A stretch of DNA of 26,971 bases, from positions 1 to 26,971 of the IMG/VR virus record IMGVR_UViG_3300046522_000240. One strand, given 5' to 3'. Below are positions 3,177 to 26,524 of the stretch, one piece after another. Made by a program: the position numbers and the translations under genes. The notes beneath the pieces are model-generated. The model searched no databases. It was not told the origin of the DNA and saw nothing but the letters and a program-made list of their open reading frames with translations. Every line of letters begins with the position of its first letter. Position 1 is the first letter of the stretch. The DNA is from a virus.

Positions 3177-3214
3177 GGGAATGATCCTGTCGATGGGAGT
3201 GATTAGGCGCACCT

Positions 3215-3269
3215 ATGGCGTCCAAGGGTGCCCCCCAGGTGTTTCCTGAGGGGAACCTAGGGCCGTCAT
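3215..3269 (-). repeat. Hairpin repeat copy 1 (early intergenic)
   Basis: A 55-base element with imperfect inverted-repeat arms shared with copy 2 at 2245-2298. The central stem differs (CAGG-TGTTT-CCTG here, CGG-CGTA-CCG there), so the loop sequences changed while pairing was kept. It sits between the 44-aa gene and the cysteine-rich gene. The inner part (CCTAGGTTCCCCTCA on the minus strand) is also found, with one change, in the terminator after the capsid gene. Confidence 0.7.
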
Positions 3270-3275
3270 CCCACC

Positions 3276-3410
3276 TTACGTCATGTCGACCCGGCAGGTA
3301 TGCCCCACCATGTCGACGAGGTAGCTGCGTTCCCGCTCAATGAAGCCCGGCGGGCCGCCGGCCCAGAACTGCCAGCGGCCAGCCCGGAGGATGTAAAGGC
3401 GATGGATCAT
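3276..3410 (-). CDS. Hypothetical protein, 44 aa
   Basis: The ATG at 3410 overlaps the stop of the 73-aa gene upstream (ATGA), which fixes the start; the frame upstream of it lies inside that gene. The 44-aa product begins MIHRLYILRAGRWQFWAGGP and ends VGHTCRVDMT. Its first part (short beta strand, then R.G.WQFW) resembles the opening of its upstream neighbour (YHTLLVFEDGAWAPQF), so the two may be distant relatives, though the similarity is short. Function unknown. Confidence 0.65.
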   Translation of the reverse strand: MIHRLYILRAGRWQFWAGGPPGFIERERSYLVDMVGHTCRVDMT

Positions 3411-3628
3411 GGCTTCGGGTGGGGCAGGGTAGCGGCAATCGCCATGACAGCGGCATGGGACGGAGCCTGCGGTGTCTTGCGGATGCAATAGAAGCGGCGA
3501 TGGCGGGGATTGTCCGACCCGCTATCGATCATGTCGCGGATTTCCTGGACCACAATGTCCCGGTCCCGGTCACCAAACTGCGGCGCCCATGCGCCATCTT
3601 CGAAGACCAGCAAGGTGTGATAGGCCAT
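3407..3628 (-). CDS. Hypothetical protein, 73 aa
   Basis: The start is ATG 3628 (MAYHTLLVFEDGAWAPQFGD), four bases after the upstream stop; the longer frame up to 3811 overlaps that gene and looks like out-of-frame translation. The N-terminal half looks like a small alpha/beta unit: strand, turn with a tryptophan, then helix (DRDIVVQEIRDMID). A basic stretch (PRHRRFYCIRKTP) follows, then a hydrophobic helix-like tail. Small proteins with this layout are frequent in phage accessory regions. No function assigned. Confidence 0.65.
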   Translation of the reverse strand: MAYHTLLVFEDGAWAPQFGDRDRDIVVQEIRDMIDSGSDNPRHRRFYCIRKTPQAPSHAAVMAIAATLPHPKP

Positions 3629-3632
3629 GGTG

Positions 3633-3806
3633 TCAAGCCCCCATGATGCGGTAATCGAGGAGGAACGCGCCAACCGGCTGGGCGAAGCGGCCCGTGCCAT
3701 CGAAGGCGAAGGAGTAATGGACCACACCATCCGTGACGGCAGTGATGCGAACGGGCCGCCCAACCGGGGCGTATGCATCGTTCCAGATCTCATTGGCTTT
3801 GGGCAT
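3633..3806 (-). CDS. First early gene, hypothetical, 57 aa
   Basis: The start is ATG 3806 (MPKANEIWNDAYAPVGRPVR), with GGAG six bases upstream; that site lies inside the dyad GTCAAG-N5-CTTGAC. The frame is open to 3923, but the added residues look non-coding. The product is a small beta-rich protein (VRITAVTDGVVHYSFAFDGTGRFAQPVGAFLLDYRI) compatible with an SH3-like barrel. It is the first gene after the 1.2-kb non-coding stretch and so would be the first early gene. No family recognised. Confidence 0.65.
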   Translation of the reverse strand: MPKANEIWNDAYAPVGRPVRITAVTDGVVHYSFAFDGTGRFAQPVGAFLLDYRIMGA

Positions 3807-3823
3807 GTCAAGCTCCACTTGAC
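3807..3823. repeat. Dyad GTCAAG-N5-CTTGAC at early gene start
   Basis: A dyad with 6-base perfect arms and 5 unpaired bases. It covers the ribosome binding site of the 57-aa gene (GGAG lies inside it) and ends just before its ATG, so a hairpin or a bound protein here could affect translation or transcription. Related dyads occur at 4094, 10652, 19922 and 22167. Confidence 0.5.
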
Positions 3824-3953
3824 CGGAGGAATGGGACTGTTTCGGCCCGCCTAGGGCCATCATCAGGGGCACCTCATGGCACCCGACAGTTTCCGTCACC
3901 GGTTGCCGCTGCATGCTCCCCAATTCATGGGCTGGCGTTGCGGGCCGATTAGC

Positions 3954-3972
3954 CCTAGGGGCGCTCCCTAGG
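3954..3972. repeat. Perfect hairpin CCTAGGG-GCGCT-CCCTAGG
   Basis: Seven-base-pair perfect stem with a 5-base loop in the leader of the early genes. There is no U tract on either strand, so it is not a simple terminator; it may be a processing or control hairpin. Confidence 0.55.
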
Positions 3973-4093
3973 TCGGCGGTCCCTTATGCTTGGCGGGGCC
4001 GCTTGCCGTGCCGTCTGGCGTCGCCATTCGGTGATTGAAGACAACCACGAATGGGACACTGCCGACAATCCCCTATTTTCAAGAAAGTTTGCG

Positions 4094-4109
4094 GTCAAGT
4101 CGACTGGAC
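4094..4109. repeat. Imperfect dyad GTCAAG-N4-CTGGAC
   Basis: Matches the GTCAAG-N4-CTTGAC dyad at 11 of 12 arm positions, with a perfect AGTCGACT core. On the minus strand it provides a TTGACC that could be a -35 box, but no good -10 box follows. Confidence 0.35.
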
Positions 4110-4189
4110 AGGCAAAAACCTAGGCTTTGTGCGGGTTACAGCCTCGAAAAAAAAATCTACAGGTGCAGCCAATGCGCTCCCAATGTGCC

Positions 4190-4270
4190 CCTTGGGTGCC
4201 GCCTTGGGTGTTGCAATGGTGGGATTGCCTTGGGTGGGGCCTTGGGTGTTGCCAGGTGCATCCTTGGGTG
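4190..4270. repeat. Cluster of five CCTTGGGTG repeats (iteron-like)
   Basis: CCTTGGGTG occurs exactly five times on the plus strand, starting at 4190, 4202, 4228, 4240 and 4262 (CACCCAAGG on the minus strand); a near copy (CCTTGGGTT) is at 4460. Start-to-start spacings are 12, 26, 12 and 22 bases. T7 carries arrays of a short repeat next to its terminal repeats, so an end-processing, packaging or origin role is plausible by position. No protein known to bind it can be named. Confidence 0.7.
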
Positions 4271-4274
4271 ATCC

Positions 4275-4291
4275 GTGGGACTTTTTCCCAC
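4275..4291. repeat. Perfect hairpin GTGGGA-N5-TCCCAC
   Basis: Six-base-pair perfect stem with an A/T loop (CTTTT on plus, AAAAG on minus), directly beside the repeat cluster. There is a T5 run before it on the minus strand but none after it, so it is not a standard terminator in the direction of the genes. Confidence 0.5.
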
Positions 4292-4355
4292 AAAAAGAAA
4301 ACGTCCAGTGTACGCCCCACCAAAAGGACGGACACGATTAGATCGCACACGATTG

Positions 4356-4386
4356 ATTATCGAGACAACAGTTATCGCGATATCAA
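4356..4386 (-). promoter_or_regulatory. Possible host sigma70-type early promoter
   Basis: On the minus strand TTGATA (4386-4381) and GATAAT (4361-4356) resemble -35 and -10 boxes, but the spacer is 19 bases, longer than ideal. It is oriented toward the early genes and lies in the AT-richer part of the end region, where host-polymerase promoters of T7-like phages are expected. Weak evidence. Confidence 0.28.
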
Positions 4387-4799
4387 AGCTAAGGCCGAGC
4401 CCAACCTGGCCCGGTCACACGGTACATCCCCTGATACATCCGATCTACCCCCAGGGATTGCCTTGGGTTCAGCCCATGCTGTGCCCGTACTGTGCCCGAT
4501 GGTGGGATGGAAGGCGCGATGCAGGTGTGCCTGCGCGGGAGCTTCTCCGCGTCACGCGAGGGGGTACGGGGGGGTACGCGCGCGCTGCCGCCTATCCGAT
4601 TGACCCAACGGAAATTTGGCCCATTTTAGAGCGTCCCCTAGGGAACCACCTGGGGAGCCGCCTGGGGCCTCTCCTGAGGCTGGCCTATGGTGGGGAGGGC
4701 CTGGGGGAGGATTGGCCTGTACGGGCTCCCGAGGCCCGCCTGAGAGGGCTTCCTGGGGGTGGCCCTGGGGGAAGCATCCATTGGACATCCAACCCGGAA

Positions 4800-4815
4800 C
4801 TGAGGCGCTCCTCAG
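4800..4815. repeat. Perfect hairpin CTGAGG-CGCT-CCTCAG
   Basis: Six-base-pair stem with a 4-base loop in the GC-rich part of the end region, which is dense in CCTGGGG and CCTNAGG strings (about 4630-4830). No U tract; function unknown. Confidence 0.45.
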
Positions 4816-4939
4816 GAGTACCTAGGTAGGGAGGTGTAGGGAGGGTGTGTGTAAGGGTAACCCCAAGGGGAGCACCTACCATCCAACCAACATCAAACAC
4901 CTACCCTCTATACCTAACTGAACCCTGGGGTGGGATAGG

Positions 4940-4979
4940 AGGGGGGCTTAGTGAGGGATATATCGTGGTATACCCCCCT
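4940..4979. repeat. Inverted repeat enclosing promoter B
   Basis: AGGGGGG at 4940-4946 pairs with CCCCCCT at 4973-4979, leaving a 26-base loop that contains the T3-like promoter core. The promoter at 26002-26023 is enclosed the same way, also with a 26-base loop. Confidence 0.6.
4943..4964 (-). promoter_or_regulatory. T3-like phage RNA polymerase promoter (B), end-region
   Basis: The minus strand reads ATATATCCCTCACTAAG followed by CCCC. The core CCCTCACTAA is identical to the T3 RNA polymerase promoter core, and 13 of 17 positions match the T3 consensus from -17 to -1. It matches the other promoter in this window at 16 of 17 positions. It points toward the early genes, just past the large terminase gene, where T7 places its end-associated promoters that also serve replication. 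The start would be G then CCCC, not the GGG that T7 polymerase prefers. Confidence 0.75.
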
Positions 4980-5049
4980 AACTCACTGATCTCTCAGAGA
5001 GAACGGGGGATATCCACAGGAGTGGGCTACTAGGCCCAGGAGGGGGCCA

Positions 5050-6819
5050 TTATTGGCTGTAGAGGTTGTTCCAGAAGGCAGCACCGCGGTCGTCGTGGCC
5101 GGTCTTGCTCTGGTACTGGCCGTTCAGCCAGGCGCCGGCCTGAGGCGCTCCTCCGAAGTCCTCCACGAACTTCTCGAACATGGCGTCTAGGGCGGCCTCC
5201 TGGGCCTCCTCCACGCCCTTGTCGCTGTCCTTGGCCATGGCTAGCAGGAAGTGGTTGCATGCCCCTGCAAGGGCGTCCAGGCGGTCGTCGTGGGCCAGGG
5301 CGCCGCGCTCGCGGGTGATGTGGGTGAGCTGGTAGGTCAGGGTGCGCTCGCGCCAACGGTCGCCGCCGTGGATCATCGCCGAGCGCATGTCGTTCTCCAG
5401 CACCTTCGGATCGACGATCAGCTTGTGCTGGTTCAGGAGGGGCTCAAGGATGTCGATGATCCGGGCCTCCTTGGCGGTCTTGGCGCGATCCTCAAGGAAC
5501 TCGCAGGGGTAGCCGGCTCGGGTGAACACGGGCTTGAGCAGCTCGGTGAACATGCCGTCGCCGAAGTTGCTCTCGATGATCATGGTGTTGACCGCCTGGA
5601 GCTTGGCGATCGACGCCAGCTTGCTCAGGGTGGCGTCCTCGTAGCCGCCCTTGAAGCCGCCCGAGGCGACCAGGAAGAGGCGCCCGTTGGAGTACCGGAC
5701 AACGGCGTAGGCGGTCTCGTCGGCGCCCCGGCCAGAGGGATCAACATACATGGCCGTGCCGGCGTAGGGGAGGAAGTGCTCCTTGTCGGTGAACATGGGC
5801 CTGTGGACGCGGTCGCCCTTGAGCCCGTAGACGCAGTCCGAGAGGCCCTCGTAGACCTGGTCGGGGCCACCAGCCCAGATGTACTTGGCCGGGGCCAGCT
5901 CCGCATCCACGTCCGCCACGATCAGGTCGGAGAGGCGCAGGGGGAACTTGTCGAGGTCCGATAGGGCGGTGTCGAGCATGAACTGGAGGGCGTATCCGGT
6001 GCGCCCGTAGGAGGCCCGGCGGGATGCCAGGTTGGCCTCGCTGAACCTGGTGCAGGTCGGGGTGCCTGGCTTGGCCCCCTTGTCGATCATCGCCTGGATG
6101 AACGGGGCTAGGCGGTCGCCATACTTCTCCGGGTCTGCCGGCACCTCCGCGGTCCAGATGCGGATCTTGTAGCCGTCCGGGTCGTGGGCGGTGTCCTCGG
6201 CCCGGCGGTTGTAGAGGCTGTCCTCGGTCTGGGGGGTGCCCAGGTAGGTGATGACCGCGTGGGGCTCCGGCTTGATGATGGCGTCGAATTCCTTCACCAG
6301 CTCGTTCAGCTTCTCCCGCTGGCCCTGGGTGGCCGAGTTGTTCGGCACCTCGATATCGTCGGCCAGGATCTCGTCGGCGCGTGAGCCGGTGATCTGGCCG
6401 GTGATGCCCACGGACTTCACCGAGGGGTCTTTCGAGGCAGCCGCGGGGGCCACGTCGAACATCAGGTTACTGTCCCGGTCGCCCTTGGAGGGGTCGGGCT
6501 TCAGGTGCTGGAGGATCGGCATCTCTCGGATCAGGCGCTTGATGAACACGCTCAAGCTGTCGGCGAGCTGCTTCGAGGCCGAGATGATCTCGACCTTCCA
6601 ATCGGGGTTGCAGTAGAGGCGCCAGCACACAAATGCCGAGTAGATCCAGCTCTTGCCCACGCCCCGGAAGGCCATGATGATCTTCCGGGTGGGGCCGTGC
6701 TGCATGTGGTAGGCGATGTCGTACTGAACCGGGGTCGGGTCAGGGAGGCCGAGGTGCTTCCAGACGACGTAGAGGAAGTTCCGGAAGTCCTCCTTCAGGG
6801 GATCAATGTCTTCGGTCAT
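5050..6819 (-). CDS. terL: Terminase large subunit (T7 gp19-like DNA packaging ATPase/nuclease)
   Basis: A 589-aa packaging motor protein that pumps DNA into the prohead at the portal vertex and cuts concatemers. Walker A is FRGVGKS at residues 51-57; a Walker B-like ILADDIE is at 151-157; a coupling-type motif YLGTPQ is at 192-197. The C-terminal RNase H-like nuclease shows acidic residues in YVDPSGRGADETA (Asp360), IIESNFGDG (Glu416) and ALAHDDRLDAL (around Asp511-515). Length matches T7 gp19 (about 586 aa). The ATG at 6819 is preceded only by a weak site. It is the last late gene, with the non-coding end region directly downstream. It likely works with the small subunit two genes upstream. 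Confidence 0.97.
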   Translation of the reverse strand: MTEDIDPLKEDFRNFLYVVWKHLGLPDPTPVQYDIAYHMQHGPTRKIIMAFRGVGKSWIYSAFVCWRLYCNPDWKVEIISASKQLADSLSVFIKRLIREMPILQHLKPDPSKGDRDSNLMFDVAPAAASKDPSVKSVGITGQITGSRADEILADDIEVPNNSATQGQREKLNELVKEFDAIIKPEPHAVITYLGTPQTEDSLYNRRAEDTAHDPDGYKIRIWTAEVPADPEKYGDRLAPFIQAMIDKGAKPGTPTCTRFSEANLASRRASYGRTGYALQFMLDTALSDLDKFPLRLSDLIVADVDAELAPAKYIWAGGPDQVYEGLSDCVYGLKGDRVHRPMFTDKEHFLPYAGTAMYVDPSGRGADETAYAVVRYSNGRLFLVASGGFKGGYEDATLSKLASIAKLQAVNTMIIESNFGDGMFTELLKPVFTRAGYPCEFLEDRAKTAKEARIIDILEPLLNQHKLIVDPKVLENDMRSAMIHGGDRWRERTLTYQLTHITRERGALAHDDRLDALAGACNHFLLAMAKDSDKGVEEAQEAALDAMFEKFVEDFGGAPQAGAWLNGQYQSKTGHDDRGAAFWNNLYSQ

Positions 6820-10672: not shown

Positions 10673-13600
10673 TCAGTCGTCACGCATGGGATGCCACTCC
10701 CCCTGGGGCGTCTTCTTGGGTAGGCCCGAGGTGAGCCAGGAGAGGGCACCGGAGAAGAGCACGGAGTTCGAGTAGGGAAGGGTGTGGAGGACCGCGTTGG
10801 CCTCTGGCTGGGATGGTGCCCGGCCGTGCAGCAGCGGGGACATGATGCCGCCTATGGCCTTCGCCGCGGTGACTGCTAGGTCCGCCGTGGGGTTGCCGAA
10901 GAGCGGGTCGCTTTGCAGCCCGGTCGAACGGCCATTGAAGATGTGTGCCTTGCCGCCCGAGCCGTAGAAGGCCCCGGCGTCGAGCATCATCGGGATGACC
11001 GAGGAGACGCCCATGTTCTGGAAGGTGTTCAGGCCGAGGTTGGCGTAGCCGTTCCCCGAGACCTTGTCCTTCCAGAACTGGTCCCTCTCCTTGCCCTCGG
11101 CGTAGCCGAAGGAGGCGATGTAGGTCCGCCCGGTGAAGGCCGCCGCCGCCGAGAACGCCGTACACATGAAGATGGCGTAGGAGGTGGGGTCACGCATGTG
11201 GATGTTGTGGAGGGTCTGCTTGAAGTAGCTGCCAACCATGAATGTCCTGAACTGCAAGGCCACCTTGATGCCCCTGTGCTGGAGCCAGGTGGGCATGGCG
11301 CCCAGGTCGTTCTCCTGGATGATCTTGCGCGCCCAGCGGTTTACGCCCAGCTCGAAGTGGGAGCGGGCTTCCAGGTCCGTCCAGGCGTTCAGGTTCAGGC
11401 CACGGGTGTTGAGGCCGCGGGTGCCCCCGGTGTGCGTCTTGAACTGCTCCAAGATGCGCGGGAGCATCTCGTCAGACCAGCCATTGGCGCGCATCCTGGC
11501 CATGTTCTGGGGGGTTGCCCCGACCTGGGCCGCCCTGGCGAACCGGTACATGATCCCGCGGTAGGCGGTCTGCTTCAGCATCCGGTTGACGGGGCGAAGG
11601 AGGGATACCGTTGCCACCGCCGCGGCGCCCTTGCGCAAGACTTGGTCGGTGTTCCGCAGCCATGGGGCCACGGAGCTGGTCAGGCTGTCGGTCTCGTCCC
11701 AGGTGGTGGGCATCGCATAGCGGAGGTCATCGTCGCCAAAGGCTTCCATGATCTCGCGGCCCAGCTTGTCCCCCTTGGCGATCCCCTTGGGTGCGCTTCG
11801 GACGACGCTCTTCAGGCTCGGGACGCCCTGGATCGACGCCACCACGCCCAGGTGGGCCACGGTGTTGTACGTCTCGGCCGCCTGGGCGAACCCCATGTTG
11901 TTCATGAGGCGTAGGAAGTTGAAGTTCTGGAGCAGTCGGGCGAACGCCGCGAGGTTGCCCTGGTCGCTGCTGTGGGGCAGCCCCAGGATGCCTCGATACA
12001 TGTGCTCCATGTGCTCGATGCTGGCCGCGGAGGTGGCCCTGGCGGTCCCGTTATTGGCTCCCTGGGCGCGGACCACGGTCTGTAGCGCCTCGAACTCCGA
12101 CCGCTTGGTGACGCCGTCCAGCAGGTGCTCACCCGTCTCCGGGTTGGTGATGCGCATCCTCGCCAGGGAGACCTGACCGGCAGCCTCGTGGCTGTAGTGC
12201 TCGAAGACGTGCCAGGCGTTGTTGTCGGTGAAGTCCCGGATGGTCAAGGAGTGCTTCGCGCCGGCCTGGTCGAAGACATCAACTGGGACGTTCTCGGACA
12301 GCCGGGCGCGGAACTTGTTCCGGCTCATGTTGCCGGCATCGGTCTCGGGCTTGAAGGACTTGGCGACCGCCTCGGCGTCACCTTCGGAGATCCCAAGGGA
12401 CTTCAGGACATCCGTGAGGGTATCCGCATCGTCTCCCGACAGGGCGTGCTCAAGTCGGCTGGTGAGCCCGGCGTCGCGCTCCATGAGCTTCTTGTACATG
12501 CCCGAGGCGACCCTATGGGCGATCTCGTGGTCGAGCAGGGACTGGGCGTCCTTCAGGGAAGTGCGGATGACGCCAATCACGCCAGCCTCGCCGATCTTGT
12601 CAGTCCACTCGTTCAGCTTCGCGAAGTCCCATAGGCGGGGGAAGTAGAACTTGTTCTTCTCGACGTTCTCCGCACCCGACACGGCCCGCCTGGTGGTCCC
12701 ATCGATGAGCCCAGGGTTGGCCTTCAGCTCCTGCCAGCGCCCGAGGTTGTCCCTCAGGATGTCGCCGGCCTTCGCCACGTTGGGATCATGGACTGTCAGC
12801 GGGTTGCTATCGGTGATGTAGCGGGTCACGCTGTCATTGAACTCGTCCGCGTGGCGCCAGCGCATGAACCGGCTGATGCCCTTGGCCTTCAGCCATCCGT
12901 CATAGGCGTCCCGGAACCCCGGAGCCGCCCGGCCGATGGCCTGGTCGCGCAGGATCAGGGCTTCCTCTGAGGCCCCGAAGATGGTTGTCAGGCCCTTGTC
13001 CGCGTTGCCCACGCTGTCCTGGCCGATTGCGTTGCCGATGGCTCGGGCGGCTTCGTCGTCCATGGACTTCAGGCGCCCCACCGTGTCCTGGCGGAGCTTG
13101 CCCGCAAAGGCCGCCCTGGGGGCCACGCTCTCAGGCAGATTGGTCCATAGCGCCACGTCGTCCCGGAGCGCCATGCGGCCCGCCGAGGCGGCGCCTGCGG
13201 AGCCGGGGGCGACCAGCGCGGTGCCGTTGAGGGCATCCTTGCGCATGTCCTGCCCGACCTTGACCAGGTGGTCCGAGGCCCGTAGAGAGGCCGCCGAGCG
13301 GGTGGCCCAGGCGCCGAAGCCGGCCCCGAAGATGCCACCTAGGGCCGCCCCGTAGAGCACCGAGTTGGGATCGGTGCCGTACTGCCCCACATTCGAGAGG
13401 GCCTGGGAGCCACCGCCAACCGCCGCCTCAACCCCCGCGGTGAGGCCGATGCGGCCCGCCCGACTGAGTTGAAGCGCCAGCGCGGCGCCCTCCGAAAGCC
13501 CACCTGAGGCGAGCCCCGCAGCGAGCGCCGGGGGGTCAGTGAGGGTGGAGATGATGTCCGCCGCGGTGCCAGTCCAGCCGGCTCGGCCCAGCAGCTCGTT

Positions 13601-16726: not shown

Positions 16727-17251
16727 TTACTCCCCTGGTGGCTGGTATTTGAGGTAGCTTTCAGCGCCCTGCGCGCCGACCTTCAGCAGCGCCATGCCGG
16801 CGTCCAGGAAGGACGGGCCGGGGGTCTTCTGGTAGGTGCCGCGGGCGGTGATCTGGGCGTTGATGCCCTTCTTCTGCTCGTCAAACTGCTGGCTGCGGTT
16901 GGAGGCGGAGCGGTCGATGGAGCCGATGTTCTGGCCATACTGACGCTCGATGTCCCCCAGGAGGAGATCCACGGTGTTGCCTGAGGCGCCGTCTAGCTGG
17001 GCTATGGTGGTCGCCTGGGCGGACTTGTAGGCGAGGCGCTCTTGGATGCGCTTCTCGGTGTCGTCCTGGGCAGCCTGGAGCTGCTCTCGGTTCTGTTGGG
17101 CCTGCTGCCCCCCGCCCGCGTCTACCGCGGCACGGAGGTTGGCCCGTCCGGCAGCGTTGGCGGCGTCCGCGGCCTGGGCCTGGCCGAACATCTGGAAGCC
17201 CGACTGGAGGCCCCCCAGGCCCGCCGAGGCGAACATCAGGGGATCGCACAT
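16727..17251 (-). CDS. Internal virion protein B (T7 gp14-like)
   Basis: A 174-aa protein (T7 gp14 is 196 aa) that would be part of the internal core and, after ejection, of the outer-membrane pore. The start is set at ATG 17251 (MCDPLMFASAGLGGLQSGFQ), since it shares a base with the preceding stop (TGATG) and has GGGAGG seven bases upstream; the longer frame to 17407 lies inside the previous gene. MCDP at the N-terminus, a Gly/Ala-rich hydrophobic start and a long Gln/Ala-rich coiled coil (AQAADAANAAGRANLRAAVD, then QQAQQNREQLQAAQDDTEKR) are typical of this family. Confidence 0.88.
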   Translation of the reverse strand: MCDPLMFASAGLGGLQSGFQMFGQAQAADAANAAGRANLRAAVDAGGGQQAQQNREQLQAAQDDTEKRIQERLAYKSAQATTIAQLDGASGNTVDLLLGDIERQYGQNIGSIDRSASNRSQQFDEQKKGINAQITARGTYQKTPGPSFLDAGMALLKVGAQGAESYLKYQPPGE

Positions 17252-17713: not shown

Positions 17714-20041
17714 CTAGCCTCCCTTGTTGTGCGCGTAGCCGGTGAACCGGGCGTTGAGGAAGTACGCGCTGAATGGACTGTCGTTCACGATGCGGATGCG
17801 GACTTCGTCGTTCTTGCCCTTGACAGGCACCGACAGCTCCCCGTCCTCGAGTGGCATCTGGCCCAGCTCGTAGGTGGAGCCAGCCAGGCGGCGATTGGTG
17901 AAGATGGTCTTCTCGACGCTTCCGTTCGGGCGGATCACCTCAACCCGGCAGTAGCCCGTCTTCTGCACCTTGAGGAACAGCCGGGATATCTGCGTGCGGT
18001 CTGGGGAGATGGCATCGCCGTTCCGGTCCCGGAAGAAGAGCTGCGACAGCTCGACCACCTGGGGGACCACGATGCCCGCCTGGAGGGTCAACCCAGAGAG
18101 GTCACCTGAGGCGTAGAAGTGGGTGGCGTCATAGGTCAGCGGAACCACCACACCCGGCCTGAAGCGGCCCCCGATGCCGGCGGTGACCACGGCCTTGAAG
18201 ATGCGGCTGTCACTGAACGGGATGGGCCAGGTGGTGAGGTTCGGGCCAGCGTTGTAGACGCCACCCGAGAGGGTCACCCGGCGGTCCAGGTAGAGCCCGA
18301 CCTGGTCCTGGAATGCGGAGGGCTGTAGAGCCAAGCGCTCGAAGCTGACTCCGTCCGTGGGGTGGGCCACGACAAGGTAGAGGACGCCGTCGAGCCACTG
18401 GGCGGCCCGAATGATGGTCCCCTCGGCGAACACCCAGCGGTTCCACGCCGCCTGGACCTTCTCCTGACCACGCCAGTAATAGGTGTATGTGAAGAGGATG
18501 TTCGGAGCATCCGTGGTCAGGACCACCAGCATGTTGTTAGGCTCGCTGGCCACCAGGGACCGGATGTTCTTGGGCACCAGGGCCTGGACACTGTCGGACG
18601 CCTCGGTGGCATCATTGGACAGCGTGTCGCCCTCTCGGAAATACTCATTGATCGCCGAGAAGGAGCCCTTGGAGTTGGCAAAGAAGATGCTGTTTCCGGA
18701 CGCCACGGGGAGCCCTGAGGGGTTCATCGCGAAGTTCGTGGAGAGGTTCGCCGCGAAGGTCTTGGGCGACAGGAGGTCGCTTCCCTTCACCGCGTACTGG
18801 GCCACGCTGTTGAAGAGGATGAGATCCTCGTTCTGCTCCAGCGCGTAGAAGAGGGGGCTCACCTTGCCCTTGCCCACGGCGTAGTCGATGGGGTCGGTGT
18901 CGAGGAGCTGCATCGCGCTGTCCCGGAAGAAGTCGAAGAATGACCCCGCCTTGGACATGACGATGTTCTCACTCGACAGGATCACCATGCGGTTCCGGTA
19001 GAAGGTCAGGTAGGAGACGAAGTGGCCCACGAAGGATGGCCAGGGCGAGATGGTCTCGTCCCCGCACTCGCGCTGGTCCCAGGCCACCTCCTCGAAGGTG
19101 AAGGTGCCATCGGCCTGGCGGATCAGGGCGTGGGGCATGGAGGCCGGGTCGAGGCCCAGCCCAGTGTCCGGCGCCACGGTCTCCCGCCAGACACCTGAGG
19201 CGCCGCCTGAGGCGTCGAACTTGACCCAGTACTTCTCGAACTTCAGGTCATCGTTTGCCGCCACCTCCACCACCATGCCATCACGGCCCTTGGCGGGGAG
19301 GTCTGAGAAGTTCTGAACCCGACCCTTGATGAGGACCATGTCCTTGTCACCACCACCGTCCGAGCTGTCCATCGTGATGACGACTTCAGCGGGGGCCGTG
19401 AAGCGGATGGTGGAGCCCATAACCTCTACGGTCCAACCTGGGAGGTCAACCGAGGTGAACTCGTTGGCGAGGTTCTCGGCGATCCATGCAGTGGTCACCG
19501 TCTCGGCGCTCTCTCCGTCCAGGTTGTCGGTGGTGACGTTGTGCTCAACCCCGTTCAGCGTGAGGCTGTACTTGGTCGTCGGCGCGGCGTTGCGCACCCA
19601 GACCCACAGCTCATTGGGCTCCACGGGGGACCGTGAGGCGCTCTGGAGGACCGGCTTGCCGCGGTTGCTGATGAAGGTATAGTCGGCGTTGGTGAAGGCC
19701 GTGAACTGCCGCAGCTCGGTGCCGAACAGGTAGGCGGTTCCGTTGGGGAAGGTGACCGCCTTCTCGACGCCGTTCAGATCCCAAACCTTGACATTGCCCG
19801 CCCAGATGGCGACCCAGTAGCGCTCCGCATCATCCCGGTCGATCAGGTGCCAATGAGCGTAGAAGGGGACATCCCATCCGGTGTTGGCGATGAATTCCGT
19901 GGGGGGCCTACGGCCGCCTCCGTCAAGTGGACTTGACAGGAGATTGTCGCCCACCTCCAGAGAGGTAGCGGAGCGGAGCACTGCCGGCTGCTGGGAGATG
20001 CCCGAGATGAAGTTGGCGATGGCCTGCTGTCGGAGCTGCAT
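17714..20041 (-). CDS. Tail tubular protein B (T7 gp12-like nozzle)
   Basis: A 775-aa protein, close to T7 gp12 (794 aa), forming the tail nozzle below the gp11-type adaptor. The start is placed at ATG 20041 (MQLRQQAIANFISGISQQPA), because it shares a base with the stop of the gp11-like gene (TGATG) and because N-termini of this family contain the NFISGISQQP-type motif; the 17 extra residues upstream lie inside that gene. The body is beta-rich, with segments such as EGDTLSNDATEAS, NNMLVVLTTDAPNILFTYTY and WRGQEKVQAAWNRWVF, the last typical of nozzle proteins. A perfect dyad (19922-19937) lies within the 5' coding part. Confidence 0.95.
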   Translation of the reverse strand: MQLRQQAIANFISGISQQPAVLRSATSLEVGDNLLSSPLDGGGRRPPTEFIANTGWDVPFYAHWHLIDRDDAERYWVAIWAGNVKVWDLNGVEKAVTFPNGTAYLFGTELRQFTAFTNADYTFISNRGKPVLQSASRSPVEPNELWVWVRNAAPTTKYSLTLNGVEHNVTTDNLDGESAETVTTAWIAENLANEFTSVDLPGWTVEVMGSTIRFTAPAEVVITMDSSDGGGDKDMVLIKGRVQNFSDLPAKGRDGMVVEVAANDDLKFEKYWVKFDASGGASGVWRETVAPDTGLGLDPASMPHALIRQADGTFTFEEVAWDQRECGDETISPWPSFVGHFVSYLTFYRNRMVILSSENIVMSKAGSFFDFFRDSAMQLLDTDPIDYAVGKGKVSPLFYALEQNEDLILFNSVAQYAVKGSDLLSPKTFAANLSTNFAMNPSGLPVASGNSIFFANSKGSFSAINEYFREGDTLSNDATEASDSVQALVPKNIRSLVASEPNNMLVVLTTDAPNILFTYTYYWRGQEKVQAAWNRWVFAEGTIIRAAQWLDGVLYLVVAHPTDGVSFERLALQPSAFQDQVGLYLDRRVTLSGGVYNAGPNLTTWPIPFSDSRIFKAVVTAGIGGRFRPGVVVPLTYDATHFYASGDLSGLTLQAGIVVPQVVELSQLFFRDRNGDAISPDRTQISRLFLKVQKTGYCRVEVIRPNGSVEKTIFTNRRLAGSTYELGQMPLEDGELSVPVKGKNDEVRIRIVNDSPFSAYFLNARFTGYAHNKGG
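19922..19937. repeat. Dyad GTCAAGT-GG-ACTTGAC inside the nozzle gene
   Basis: Perfect seven-base arms separated by GG, near the 5' end of the tail tubular B gene. It belongs to the GTCAAG-N4-CTTGAC set. It encodes LSSPLD, so coding need could partly explain it. Confidence 0.5.
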
Positions 20042-20658: not shown

Positions 20659-20704
20659 AGAAAAAAAGCCCCCCTAGGTGCCCGGTGAGGGGAACCCAGG
20701 GGGG
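20659..20704 (-). terminator. Strong terminator after the capsid gene (T-phi analogue)
   Basis: On the minus strand a stem of CCCCCCTGGGT against ACCTAGGGGGG (one G-T pair region), a 14-base loop, then C and seven U residues. T7 has its late terminator at the same place, after gene 10, to favour capsid expression. The stem and loop are related to the early hairpin repeats at 3215 and 2245. Confidence 0.88.
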
Positions 20705-20751
20705 CGGGTAGGTGGTAGGCGCCGGACTATCTGCGGCCCGGCCTGTTGGTA

Positions 20752-24032: not shown

Positions 24033-25592
24033 TTACTGGGAAGCCCCTTGCTGTGGGGCCATCTGGTCCTTGGCAATCGCCATGGCGCCGGGAACAGCGT
24101 TCTGGGCGGCCTGCTCAAGCTGCGCCTGCTGCTGGGCCGCCTGCACCTCTTCAGGTGTTCTGACGAGGCCCTTGCTATCAACCCCGAGGCCAGCGGCCAC
24201 GCGCTTGATCAGGTCGGTCGGATTGAGATACTGGGCCAGCACTTCGGGCGGCAGGAAGCCCTGGAGGGCGCCCATGAGATCCCGCAACCTCATGAAGTCC
24301 GCCCCGCGGCCCAGTGCATCAAGGCCAGTCAGCGCAATCGGCTTGACCAGCCCAGCCGGGAGGCGGGGGAAGGTGCCCTGGCGCTTCATGCGGGCGATGG
24401 TGAGGGTCACCAGGGGGAGCTGGAAGTCCTTAGCCAGCATCGTGTAGGCGCCGCCCTGGGCCTGCTCCAGCTCACCCGCCACATAGCGGATCTCTTCGGC
24501 CGTGACCCGTTCACCGGATCTCTGCACCGCGGAGTTGAGGAGGAAGGCGTAGGACAGGCGGCCTTCGATGTCACCGGCCAGTTCCTTGGCGACCCGGAAG
24601 TCAACCGACTTCCCCTCGGCCTGGACGAAGGTAACGTCCTCGGCACGGCCGGCGCGGACATCACCGTTCTTGGCGTCCTTGATGGCCTTGATGGTGGTCT
24701 GCCCATTGGGCGCCACCAGGATGATCAGCTTGGCGAGCGCAGCGACGCCCTCCACGATGGCCTTGCTCAGGTTCTCCAGCGAGCGGAGGTCACCGAGGAA
24801 CTCCTCAACATGTGAGCGGGAGTAGTCCTCACCGTCCACCTTGACAAGGCGGAGGGGAAGCCAGGGGAGGGCGTCGAGCGGATAGCTCCCTCGGGAGCTG
24901 GGGACGATATGGCCGTTGACCTCTTGCTCCACTCGGTAGTGGTTGCCGTTGCGCCAGACGCGCGTATAGAGGTCAAGCTGGTTAATTTTCGAGATCGACT
25001 GGACTTCGCCAGAGAGGACAGCTGCGGACTTCTCCGGGGTGGCCGCTCGGATCTCGGCAGGCACCACCTCAGGGGCGACGGTCTCTTTGACAATCAGCTC
25101 GATCAGGTTTCCCATATCGTCGCGGCGAACGATGTAGCGGTCGAGGCGGAACCCCTTAAGGCCACCTTCGGGGGGCACGAAGAGGAGATAGTTGCCAGCC
25201 ACGATCAGATGCTTGAAGGCTTCAAGGGCGGTGGCCCGTGTCTCGGCGCCTTCGATGTTCTTCATCACCCGGCGTTCGAGGTTGGACAGCGCCTCATCCA
25301 TCGCCGCTAGGGCGGACGGGTCGGCGGTCATCTGCTCGATGCGGGCTTCGTCCTGCTGGAGGCGCATGAAGGGCGCGTTGGGGGGCAGGACGGCGGTGTG
25401 AAATTTGTTGGCGAGGAAGTTGACGCCACGGCTGCCAACGGACTGCCACGGCTCATAGAGGTTGGCCCCGCTGGTGCCATTTCTCGGCAGCAGGGCGGGG
25501 ATGGTCAGCTCGGCACAGGTGTAGGCTCGGTTGAGGTACTGGGTTCGGTCACCCTCTCCTGTGGCGTAGCGTGACGCAATGGACAGCGCCAC
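24033..25592 (-). CDS. Portal protein (T7 gp8-like head-tail connector)
   Basis: A 519-aa protein (T7 gp8 is 536 aa) forming the twelve-subunit ring at the packaging vertex. The start is GTG at 25592, sharing one base with the stop of the preceding small gene (TAGTG); the N-terminus reads MALSIASRYATGEGDRTQYL. Family-like segments: EPWQSVGSRGVNFLANKFHT, APFMRLQQDEA, AEDVTFVQAEGKSVDFRVAKE and SGERVTAEEIRYVAGELEQA. The C-terminal ~40 residues are Gln/Ala-rich helix. It is the first large structural gene after promoter A, with the scaffold two genes downstream, as in T7. Confidence 0.95.
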   Translation of the reverse strand: MALSIASRYATGEGDRTQYLNRAYTCAELTIPALLPRNGTSGANLYEPWQSVGSRGVNFLANKFHTAVLPPNAPFMRLQQDEARIEQMTADPSALAAMDEALSNLERRVMKNIEGAETRATALEAFKHLIVAGNYLLFVPPEGGLKGFRLDRYIVRRDDMGNLIELIVKETVAPEVVPAEIRAATPEKSAAVLSGEVQSISKINQLDLYTRVWRNGNHYRVEQEVNGHIVPSSRGSYPLDALPWLPLRLVKVDGEDYSRSHVEEFLGDLRSLENLSKAIVEGVAALAKLIILVAPNGQTTIKAIKDAKNGDVRAGRAEDVTFVQAEGKSVDFRVAKELAGDIEGRLSYAFLLNSAVQRSGERVTAEEIRYVAGELEQAQGGAYTMLAKDFQLPLVTLTIARMKRQGTFPRLPAGLVKPIALTGLDALGRGADFMRLRDLMGALQGFLPPEVLAQYLNPTDLIKRVAAGLGVDSKGLVRTPEEVQAAQQQAQLEQAAQNAVPGAMAIAKDQMAPQQGASQ

Positions 25593-25789
25593 TAGACCGG
25601 GATCTGGAGGCCGGGGCGACCAGCCGGCTTCGGGGCCGTGAGGTCGATGCGTAGCTTGGACCGACCAACGCGGTTCGCGTCCTGCGCTGTGGCAGCCGGG
25701 GCGACCGGATCAGCGATACCTTCGGCGGTCTTCTCGGGGGTCGGGAGTGGATGGGGGTCGGGCTTCTTGATCTTCGGTGGACCGCACAT
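25592..25789 (-). CDS. Small virion/tail assembly protein, gp7.3-like
   Basis: The start is ATG 25789 (MCGPPKIKKPDPHPLPTPEK), one base after the stop of the 57-aa gene; an upstream frame to 25864 overlaps that gene and is out of place. The 65-aa product is proline- and lysine-rich and probably disordered, ending GRSKLRIDLTAP then GRPGLQIPV. Many T7-like phages have a small protein directly before the portal that begins MCG/MCS-P and ends with an LRI...L.IP pattern, the position of T7 gp7.3, which is needed for tail assembly and host adsorption. The assignment is by position and end pattern only. Confidence 0.72.
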   Translation of the reverse strand: MCGPPKIKKPDPHPLPTPEKTAEGIADPVAPAATAQDANRVGRSKLRIDLTAPKPAGRPGLQIPV

Positions 25790-25790
25790 G

Positions 25791-25964
25791 CTACTGGGCT
25801 GCCTCCTCCTGTTGACGGAGGCGGGAGACCAACATCTCGACCACTGACCGCTGACCCGCTTCAAAGAAGATCTGATCGGGATGGGTTCCCGGTAGCGGTG
25901 CCTTCAAGGGGTAAGCCTGAAGGAGGTAGGTTACTAGGGAAGGATCAATGTAAGGGTCTTCCAA
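25791..25964 (-). CDS. Hypothetical 57-aa protein with TTG start
   Basis: This frame has no ATG at its start and is easily missed. TTG at 25964 follows AGGAGG by four bases. The product (MEDPYIDPSLVTYLLQAYPL at the start, then HPDQIFFEAGQRSVVEMLVS and RLRQQEEAAQ) has a clear protein-like pattern: a helix with LVTYL, a proline-rich turn, and a second helix with FEAGQRSVV. Similar short proteins with an F.AGQRSVV helix occur just ahead of the gp7.3/portal genes in related phages, from memory. It fills the gap between promoter A and the gp7.3-like gene and ends one base before the next ATG. Function unknown. Confidence 0.75.
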   Translation of the reverse strand: MEDPYIDPSLVTYLLQAYPLKAPLPGTHPDQIFFEAGQRSVVEMLVSRLRQQEEAAQ

Positions 25965-25967
25965 ACT

Positions 25968-25997
25968 GCCTCCTAGGTGATAGCTAAGGGGAACCCC
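25968..25997 (-). promoter_or_regulatory. Hairpin-family element supplying the RBS of the 57-aa gene
   Basis: The minus strand reads GGGGTTCCCCT, seven bases, then CACCTAGGAGGC, matching the shared parts of the early hairpin repeats and of the capsid terminator. Here the right arm has A instead of G in the G run, which creates the AGGAGG used by the TTG-started gene. Confidence 0.5.
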
Positions 25998-26039
25998 TGC
26001 TGGGGCTTAGTGAGGGGTATATTCAAATTCCAGCAGGGG
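25994..26039. repeat. Inverted repeat enclosing promoter A
   Basis: CCCCTGCTGG at 25994-26003 and CCAGCAGGGG at 26030-26039 form a perfect 10-bp stem with a 26-base loop that holds most of the promoter. In read-through RNA this would be a strong hairpin, comparable in position to the T7 R6.5 RNase III site beside promoter phi6.5. Confidence 0.7.
26002..26023 (-). promoter_or_regulatory. T3-like phage RNA polymerase promoter (A), late genes
   Basis: The minus strand reads ATATACCCCTCACTAAG then CCCC. It matches the T3 promoter consensus at 13 of 17 positions, including the whole CCCTCACTAA core, and the promoter near 4950 at 16 of 17. It lies in the gap between the DUF3310 gene and the 57-aa gene, so it would drive the portal, scaffold and later structural genes, like phi6.5 of T7. 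Confidence 0.8.
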
Positions 26040-26047
26040 AGTAGGGT

Positions 26048-26524
26048 TCAGGCGGCGGCCTTCTGCTCCTCGAACGCGATCAGGACATCCAGCATGTGCC
26101 GGGCCTTCTTGAGATCCTGCACTCCGCCCTTCTTGCGCCACCGGGACACGTACTTGATGACGTTGCCCTCAGCGAACGGGATGCCGTTGGCCATCACGTA
26201 CTCGATGGGCTGGATGGCCATGTCGGTGTAGTGGGAGCCGCCTACCTGGGTGGTCGAGGGGGCCACCTGGGGGATCTCCGGGATGGCCTGGCGGTGGCCT
26301 GGGGTGTAGCCGGTGGCGGTGTCGATCTCGGTGCCGTTGGGCGCCAGCTCAAACTTGCTGGCGTAGTAGTTGTGCGCCAGGCCGTCGTCTGCTCTGATGT
26401 TTAGGTCACCATCGCAGTCCAGGCCGTAGACCATGTAGAACTTGCCGGGGGTAATGTGCTGTTGGGGGGTGGAGTTGGCCCGCAGCCTGACCCAATTACC
26501 CCCGTAGATTTTCACGGCTGCCAT
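26048..26524 (-). CDS. DUF3310-domain phage protein (SaV-like), 158 aa
   Basis: Residues about 93-150 match the DUF3310 pattern: QVGGSHYTDMAIQPIEYVMA, then EGNVIKYVSRWRKKGGVQDL and KKARHMLDVLI. This helical domain is frequent in phages, often in nucleotide-metabolism regions; its biochemical role is not settled. The N-terminal ~65 residues (VKIYGGNWVRLRANSTPQQH, then ITPGKFYMVYGLDCDGDLNI) look like a small beta-barrel module of the kind fused to such proteins. ATG 26524 follows AGGAGAG and overlaps the end of the exonuclease gene by 13 bases, so the two are co-translated. Promoter A lies downstream of its stop. Confidence 0.88.
   Translation of the reverse strand: MAAVKIYGGNWVRLRANSTPQQHITPGKFYMVYGLDCDGDLNIRADDGLAHNYYASKFELAPNGTEIDTATGYTPGHRQAIPEIPQVAPSTTQVGGSHYTDMAIQPIEYVMANGIPFAEGNVIKYVSRWRKKGGVQDLKKARHMLDVLIAFEEQKAAA

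Follow-up and report, generated by a model that had tools for sequence, protein, structure and literature searches.

Where an inverted repeat encloses a phage promoter in its loop, is this an RNA element, a structured promoter or a coincidence of GC-rich DNA? The question is raised by IMGVR_UViG_3300046522_000240 (G000), a virus fragment 26,971 bases long whose minus strand carries T7-like genes; it was analysed over its whole length and is called the window here. The initial annotation had described two promoters in it, each in the loop of a perfect inverted repeat, and had taken the enclosing repeats to be of fixed geometry.

Gene order in the window

The fragment end falls within an exonuclease gene (phrog_107), and the phage's own RNA polymerase gene lies outside the 27-kb record. 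Besides the end of the exonuclease gene, the minus strand encodes a DUF3310 protein, portal, scaffold, capsid, tail tubular proteins, a tail-fibre protein and the large terminase. A nucleotide search of the window against a phage collection returned no match, and the same was found for Rfam. Site 1 is located between the DUF3310 gene immediately upstream (26048–26524, minus strand; nucleotide-kinase-like, PF11753, phrog_236) and two small genes that precede the portal gene. The first of these (25791–25964, minus strand, 57 aa) has a TTG start at 25964 behind AGGAGG and an ATG-started counterpart in the Inquilinus prophage (G001) described below; the second (25592–25789, minus strand, 65 aa) starts with ATG and has a counterpart in the same prophage. 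The portal gene follows (24033–25592, minus strand; head-tail adaptor, T7 gp8 counterpart, phrog_449, E 3.5e-164). Site 2 lies directly behind the gene for the large terminase subunit (5050–6819, minus strand, phrog_38), which stops shortly before promoter 2. In T7 and T3 the corresponding places are held by phi6.5 and phiOR, and the order exonuclease, DUF3310, site 1, small genes, portal is also that of T7 and T3; like phi6.5/R6.5, site 1 falls between the exonuclease region and the genes leading to the portal. Elsewhere, between capsid and tail tubular protein A and at the position of T7 Tphi, the window carries a strong intrinsic-terminator-like hairpin, with a 12-bp stem followed by seven T (20669–20705, minus strand).

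Promoter sequences and presumed start

The core CCCTCACTAAG is present in exactly two exact copies in the whole record, at 26006–26016 and 4947–4957, both on the minus strand. As the initial annotation had reported, the 17-mers at the phi6.5 position (promoter 1, ATATACCCCTCACTAAG, 26006–26022) and at the phiOR position (promoter 2, ATATATCCCTCACTAAG, 4947–4963) are identical at 16 of 17 positions. Both are oriented with the genes, as is typical of the promoter repeat of a T7-type single-subunit RNA polymerase, and the Inquilinus prophage has its own promoter repeat at both places. Judged from sequence, the copy at site 1 is probably an active promoter.

The resemblance to T3 promoters is partial. 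The T3 consensus AATTAACCCTCACTAAAGGG has CCCTCACTAA in common with the window promoters, whereas the latter have one base less ahead of the presumed start G, which is followed by a C-run and not by GGG; they read CCCTCACTAAGCCC and are not T3 promoters proper (CCCTCACTAAAGGG with a GGG start). Counted from the presumed start G, both sites begin GCCCC; if the core is aligned to T3 instead, +1 falls on the C following this G. The earlier remark that the initial transcript, G-CCCC, is unlike the GGG with which T7 and T3 transcripts begin holds for the sequence, whereas the start position itself is presumed. Two of the three promoter copies of the Inquilinus prophage likewise read GCCCC and the remaining one GAUCC; GCAG or GGAGG is found in other relatives. 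The GCCCC start is a lineage trait and not part of the hairpin.

Anatomy of the hairpin at site 1

The inverted repeat at site 1 was found as first described, with perfect 10-bp arms and a loop of 26 bases. In minus-strand RNA the 5′ arm is CCCCUGCUGG (26030–26039) and the 3′ arm is CCAGCAGGGG (25994–26003); both covary with the arms of the Inquilinus prophage. The 26-nt loop between them (26004–26029, minus strand), identified from the inverted repeat and RNA folding, contains promoter 1. In RNA initiated at the promoter, the 3′ arm and the two C that precede it may form a 5′-terminal hairpin by themselves, GCCCC-AGCA-GGGGU.

Might such a repeat simply have arisen by chance in GC-rich intergenic DNA? 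Further repeats of 10–11 bp do exist in the window, at loops of 39–57. However, with shuffled flanks, arms of at least 10 bp arose at site 1 in 0.025% of trials (P about 0.00025), and P is about 0.0007 for the corresponding hairpin of the Inquilinus prophage. Also, every arm substitution between these two phages preserves pairing, and four Studiervirinae phages have the same geometry in the same place. Arms of 10 bp are found at 0.12% of all window positions, and site 1 is the sole stem of at least 8 bp (loop 20–32) in the exonuclease-to-portal stretch. A chance origin is thus very improbable.

The hairpin in the nearest relative

The closest relative is a T7-like prophage of Inquilinus limosus DSM 16000 (IMGVR_UViG_2523533609_000001, G001), in which the capsid protein is 88% and the portal protein 72% identical. 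No other close relative came up when viral and bacterial genomes were searched by portal, nor in a search by capsid or in 17 genomes from the same order. A T7-like phage genome lies within a 0.8-Mb chromosomal contig of I. limosus (L098, NZ_AUHM01000001.1) and is apparently a prophage.

The Inquilinus prophage encodes a T7-type RNA polymerase (phrog_414), and its promoter repeat, TTTTCCAAACCCTACCGTTAG, is unlike that of the window. This repeat occupies the positions of sites 1 and 2, and a further copy, slightly diverged, follows immediately behind the polymerase gene. The sequence AAACCCTACCGTTAG is thereby found after the RNA polymerase gene, at site 1 and after the terminase, like phi1.1, phi6.5 and phiOR (minus strand; behind the polymerase gene, L095 8466; before the portal operon, L094 11719; behind the terminase, L093 6537). 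The core reads CCCTACCGTTAG where the window has CCCTCACTAAG, and promoter specificity appears to have changed between these near relatives despite the 88% identity of their capsids.

At site 1 the Inquilinus promoter is enclosed by UCCCGGCGGGG/CCCCGCCGGGG, a hairpin of 10–11 bp. In a gap-free alignment with the window all 10 hairpin pairs are kept, of which seven are unchanged, two have gone from U-A to G-C and one from C-G to U-G, and slid registers leave 35–60% paired; this covariation comes from two sequences, and the shuffle control is weak, with 125 of 500 shuffles reaching the observed score. If the 3′ arm folds alone, both doubly changed positions fall in the loop of the resulting short hairpin, which would therefore not account for the corresponding change in the 5′ arm. 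The two phages share the same genes, a site 1 hairpin with covarying arms and the lack of a lower stem, but differ behind the terminase, where no repeat encloses the Inquilinus promoter copy (4 bp, P 0.68). No enclosing repeat was found around the copy behind the polymerase gene either.

Counterparts in the T7 group

The nesting of a promoter in a hairpin at the phi6.5 position is already known from other phages. The primary source for the T7 sequence is Dunn and Studier (1983). When all T7 promoters were folded with their flanks, phi6.5 (NC_001604, about 18519–18580) was located in AAGGTCCCTA-[26 nt]-TAGGGGCCTT, with a second stem below. The T3 record (NC_003298) annotates a stem_loop at 17135–17206, 'RNase III recognition site R6.5', with promoter phi6.5 (17160–17182) inside it, and the upper stem of this hairpin has 10 bp and its loop 25 nt. 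In the Yersinia phage phiYeO3-12, phi6.5/R6.5 is annotated as in T3 and has a 10-bp upper stem, a loop of 24 and a lower stem, and phi6.5 of Klebsiella phage K11 has an 8-bp stem, a 22-nt loop and a lower stem. A literature search on R6.5 yielded a T7 figure legend only; in a paper on T7 gene expression, R6.5 is named as one of the sites at which RNase cleaves strongly in this phage (PMC5592923).

Site 1 resembles the T7 and T3 elements in having a phage-polymerase promoter in the loop of a 10-bp stem, with a loop of 25–26 nt there, at the same gene position behind the gene 6 region and ahead of the genes leading to the portal, and it resembles K11 and phiYeO3-12 in having the phi6.5-like promoter in a hairpin loop at the same place. 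Its stem of 10 bp and loop of 26 nt (25994–26039) fall within the about 10-bp upper stem and 22–26-nt loop that characterise the group. In contrast, a 9-bp lower stem and an asymmetric internal loop are found in the T7-group phages (T7, T3, K11 and phiYeO3-12, all four with the lower stem), whereas the window and the Inquilinus prophage have neither. Also, the arm sequences are unrelated to those of T7 and T3. Given its anatomy, its gene position, the covariation of its arms and a geometry matching T7, T3, K11 and phiYeO3-12, we take site 1 to be a genuine element under selection that most likely acts as phi6.5/R6.5 does; lacking the lower stem, it is classed as a variant and not as a proven member of R6.5.

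Among the 15 T7 and 14 T3 promoters tested, phi6.5 alone is enclosed by a stem of more than 6 bp, two of the three Inquilinus copies stand without an enclosing repeat, and several more distant relatives have the promoter at the same place without arms. The general proposal that the promoters of this phage are enclosed in repeats of fixed geometry therefore fails by the refuting condition that the initial annotation had itself named.

More distant relatives

In 19 phage contigs with 40–52% portal identity, the sequence ahead of the portal gene was inspected. Several of these relatives have a clear promoter repeat upstream of the portal and behind the terminase (for instance GATTACCCCTCACCATAGGAGG and TCTAAACCCCGACTATAGCAG), and none of the 19 contigs has a hairpin of at least 8 bp around the portal-upstream copy. 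Arm covariation in related phages, which had been suggested as a check, was observed at site 1 of the Inquilinus prophage. Since the 19 more distant contigs are without it, the hairpin of site 1 is either old and often lost, or regained. No comparable promoter-enclosing hairpin was found in gh-1, SP6, LUZ100, TRX32-1 or BB8, and none of the five contigs that an exact search of IMG/VR for TATACCCCTCACTAAG returned shows the site 1 arms or the conserved neighbourhood of this site.

Proposed function of the site 1 hairpin

We consider it likely that site 1 is a late phi6.5-like promoter placed in the loop of an R6.5-like hairpin, which forms in read-through RNA and marks this RNA for processing or stabilises its ends. 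The promoter would be used by the phage's own T7-type RNA polymerase. Read-through RNA from upstream promoters would carry both arms and could fold into the 10-bp hairpin, whose loop would contain the promoter, and RNA initiated at promoter 1 would begin within the loop, without the 5′ arm, and would be unable to fold the hairpin. The hairpin would single out read-through RNA as a target of processing, with host RNase III as the most likely enzyme, or it would stabilise the new ends, and the messages for DNA metabolism would be separated from the virion messages. In T7 and T3 this arrangement turns read-through RNA into an RNase III substrate; here, too, the hairpin would form in vivo and be cleaved. 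Of the roles initially proposed, support was obtained only for that of a processing hairpin in read-through RNA, and only at site 1; it comes from the phi6.5/R6.5 position, stem and loop and from the covariation of the arms.

Within this scheme, RNase III cleavage is the favoured mechanism and a stabilising structure would be its main rival. The missing lower stem and internal loop count against cleavage. The RNase III of S. meliloti, another alphaproteobacterium, has been reported to need longer double-stranded substrates than that of E. coli (PMC6121014), and for this reason a 10-bp stem may be a poor RNase III substrate.

It is also conceivable, if less probable, that the structure is left uncut, the 10-bp stem stabilising the 3′ end or slowing the decay of read-through RNA and, in promoter-started RNA, the 3′ arm refolding alone into a 5′-terminal hairpin that would shield the virion message. 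A hairpin of the 3′ arm by itself, (A)GCCCC-NNNN-GGGGU(U), can form in the window phage and the Inquilinus prophage alike, the stem is short for RNase III and lacks its lower part, and the reported preference of the S. meliloti enzyme for longer duplexes (PMC6121014) points the same way. However, the T7 and T3 counterparts are annotated as RNase III sites, and R6.5 of T7 is listed as strongly cleaved (PMC5592923). Rather unlikely, in our view, is a third option, in which the arms form an RNA switch that depends on the start site and by which the two RNA sources are treated differently without RNase III. Here, read-through RNA would fold the long 10-bp stem, and promoter-started RNA would free the 3′ arm to form a 5′-terminal CCCC-NNNN-GGGG hairpin beside the ribosome-binding site.

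Whichever way the hairpin acts, the arrangement of phi6.5 within R6.5 is found here outside the enterobacterial T7 group, and the nearest relative is an alphaproteobacterial prophage. Between the window and the Inquilinus prophage, promoter and arms alike have been replaced in sequence, and the hairpin has persisted. If this is confirmed, the pair would offer a test of selection on the RNA fold itself and of the processing of a 10-bp stem without a lower stem.

The repeat behind the terminase

At site 2 the 7-bp inverted repeat AGGGGGG/CCCCCCT encloses promoter 2 with a loop of 26 (arms 4940–4946 and 4973–4979, minus strand). With shuffled flanks, arms of at least 7 bp arose in 1.1% of trials (P about 0.011), and 7-bp arms are found at 0.9–2% of window positions. 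The arms are a G-run against a C-run, for which RNAfold favours a different pairing, and with one G-U pair permitted the best pairing moves to 8-bp arms around a loop of 29. An enclosing repeat at phiOR is absent from the Inquilinus prophage, T7 and T3, and the site 2 hairpin neither stands clearly above chance nor is kept in relatives. Hence, the repeat is probably best treated as a chance feature, and no function is assigned to it.

The initial annotation had also drawn attention to the equal loops of the two repeats. The geometry is as described at both sites, but its constancy rests on n = 2, and the loops of the true homologues vary, with 26 nt in T7, 25 in T3, 24 in phiYeO3-12, 22 in K11 and 24–26 in the Inquilinus prophage. 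Five inverted repeats of at least 7 bp in the window have a loop of exactly 26, and because three of the five are away from any promoter, the equal loops are weak evidence. A constant 26-nt loop was rejected as a rule, the range across phages being 22–26 nt and the agreement of the two sites a coincidence.

A DNA cruciform or another DNA-level structure that regulates initiation equally at both sites would be in keeping with a promoter in an inverted-repeat loop at each of them. A 26-bp loop with arms of 7–10 bp is unfavourable for cruciform extrusion. The other promoters of the Inquilinus prophage, T7 and T3 are without such a repeat, the arms at site 2 are weak and the geometry fits a known RNA element; the cruciform promoter was rejected on these grounds, and we regard DNA-level regulation as extremely unlikely. 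No evidence was found for the cruciform promoter or for the block to opposing transcription that had been listed as possible roles.

Several other features were observed in this part of the window. The upstream half of promoter 2 can pair with an inverted copy just ahead of it (GGGGGGTATA..TATATCCCTC, 4955–4979, minus strand), and a like pairing is seen behind the terminase of the distant relative L053 (GGGGTTATAG..CTATAACCCC, about 11690–11725, plus strand). The approximately 1.8 kb behind the terminase (3213–5049), with promoter 2 at the start, contain few convincing genes and are rich in short repeats (CACCCAAGG and CCCAGG); this region may hold a replication origin or a packaging end region. 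Two 38-bp repeats that are 82% identical (ATGACGGCCCTAGGTTCCCCT..., minus strand) are also found in the region behind the terminase, at 3231–3269 and 2260–2298.
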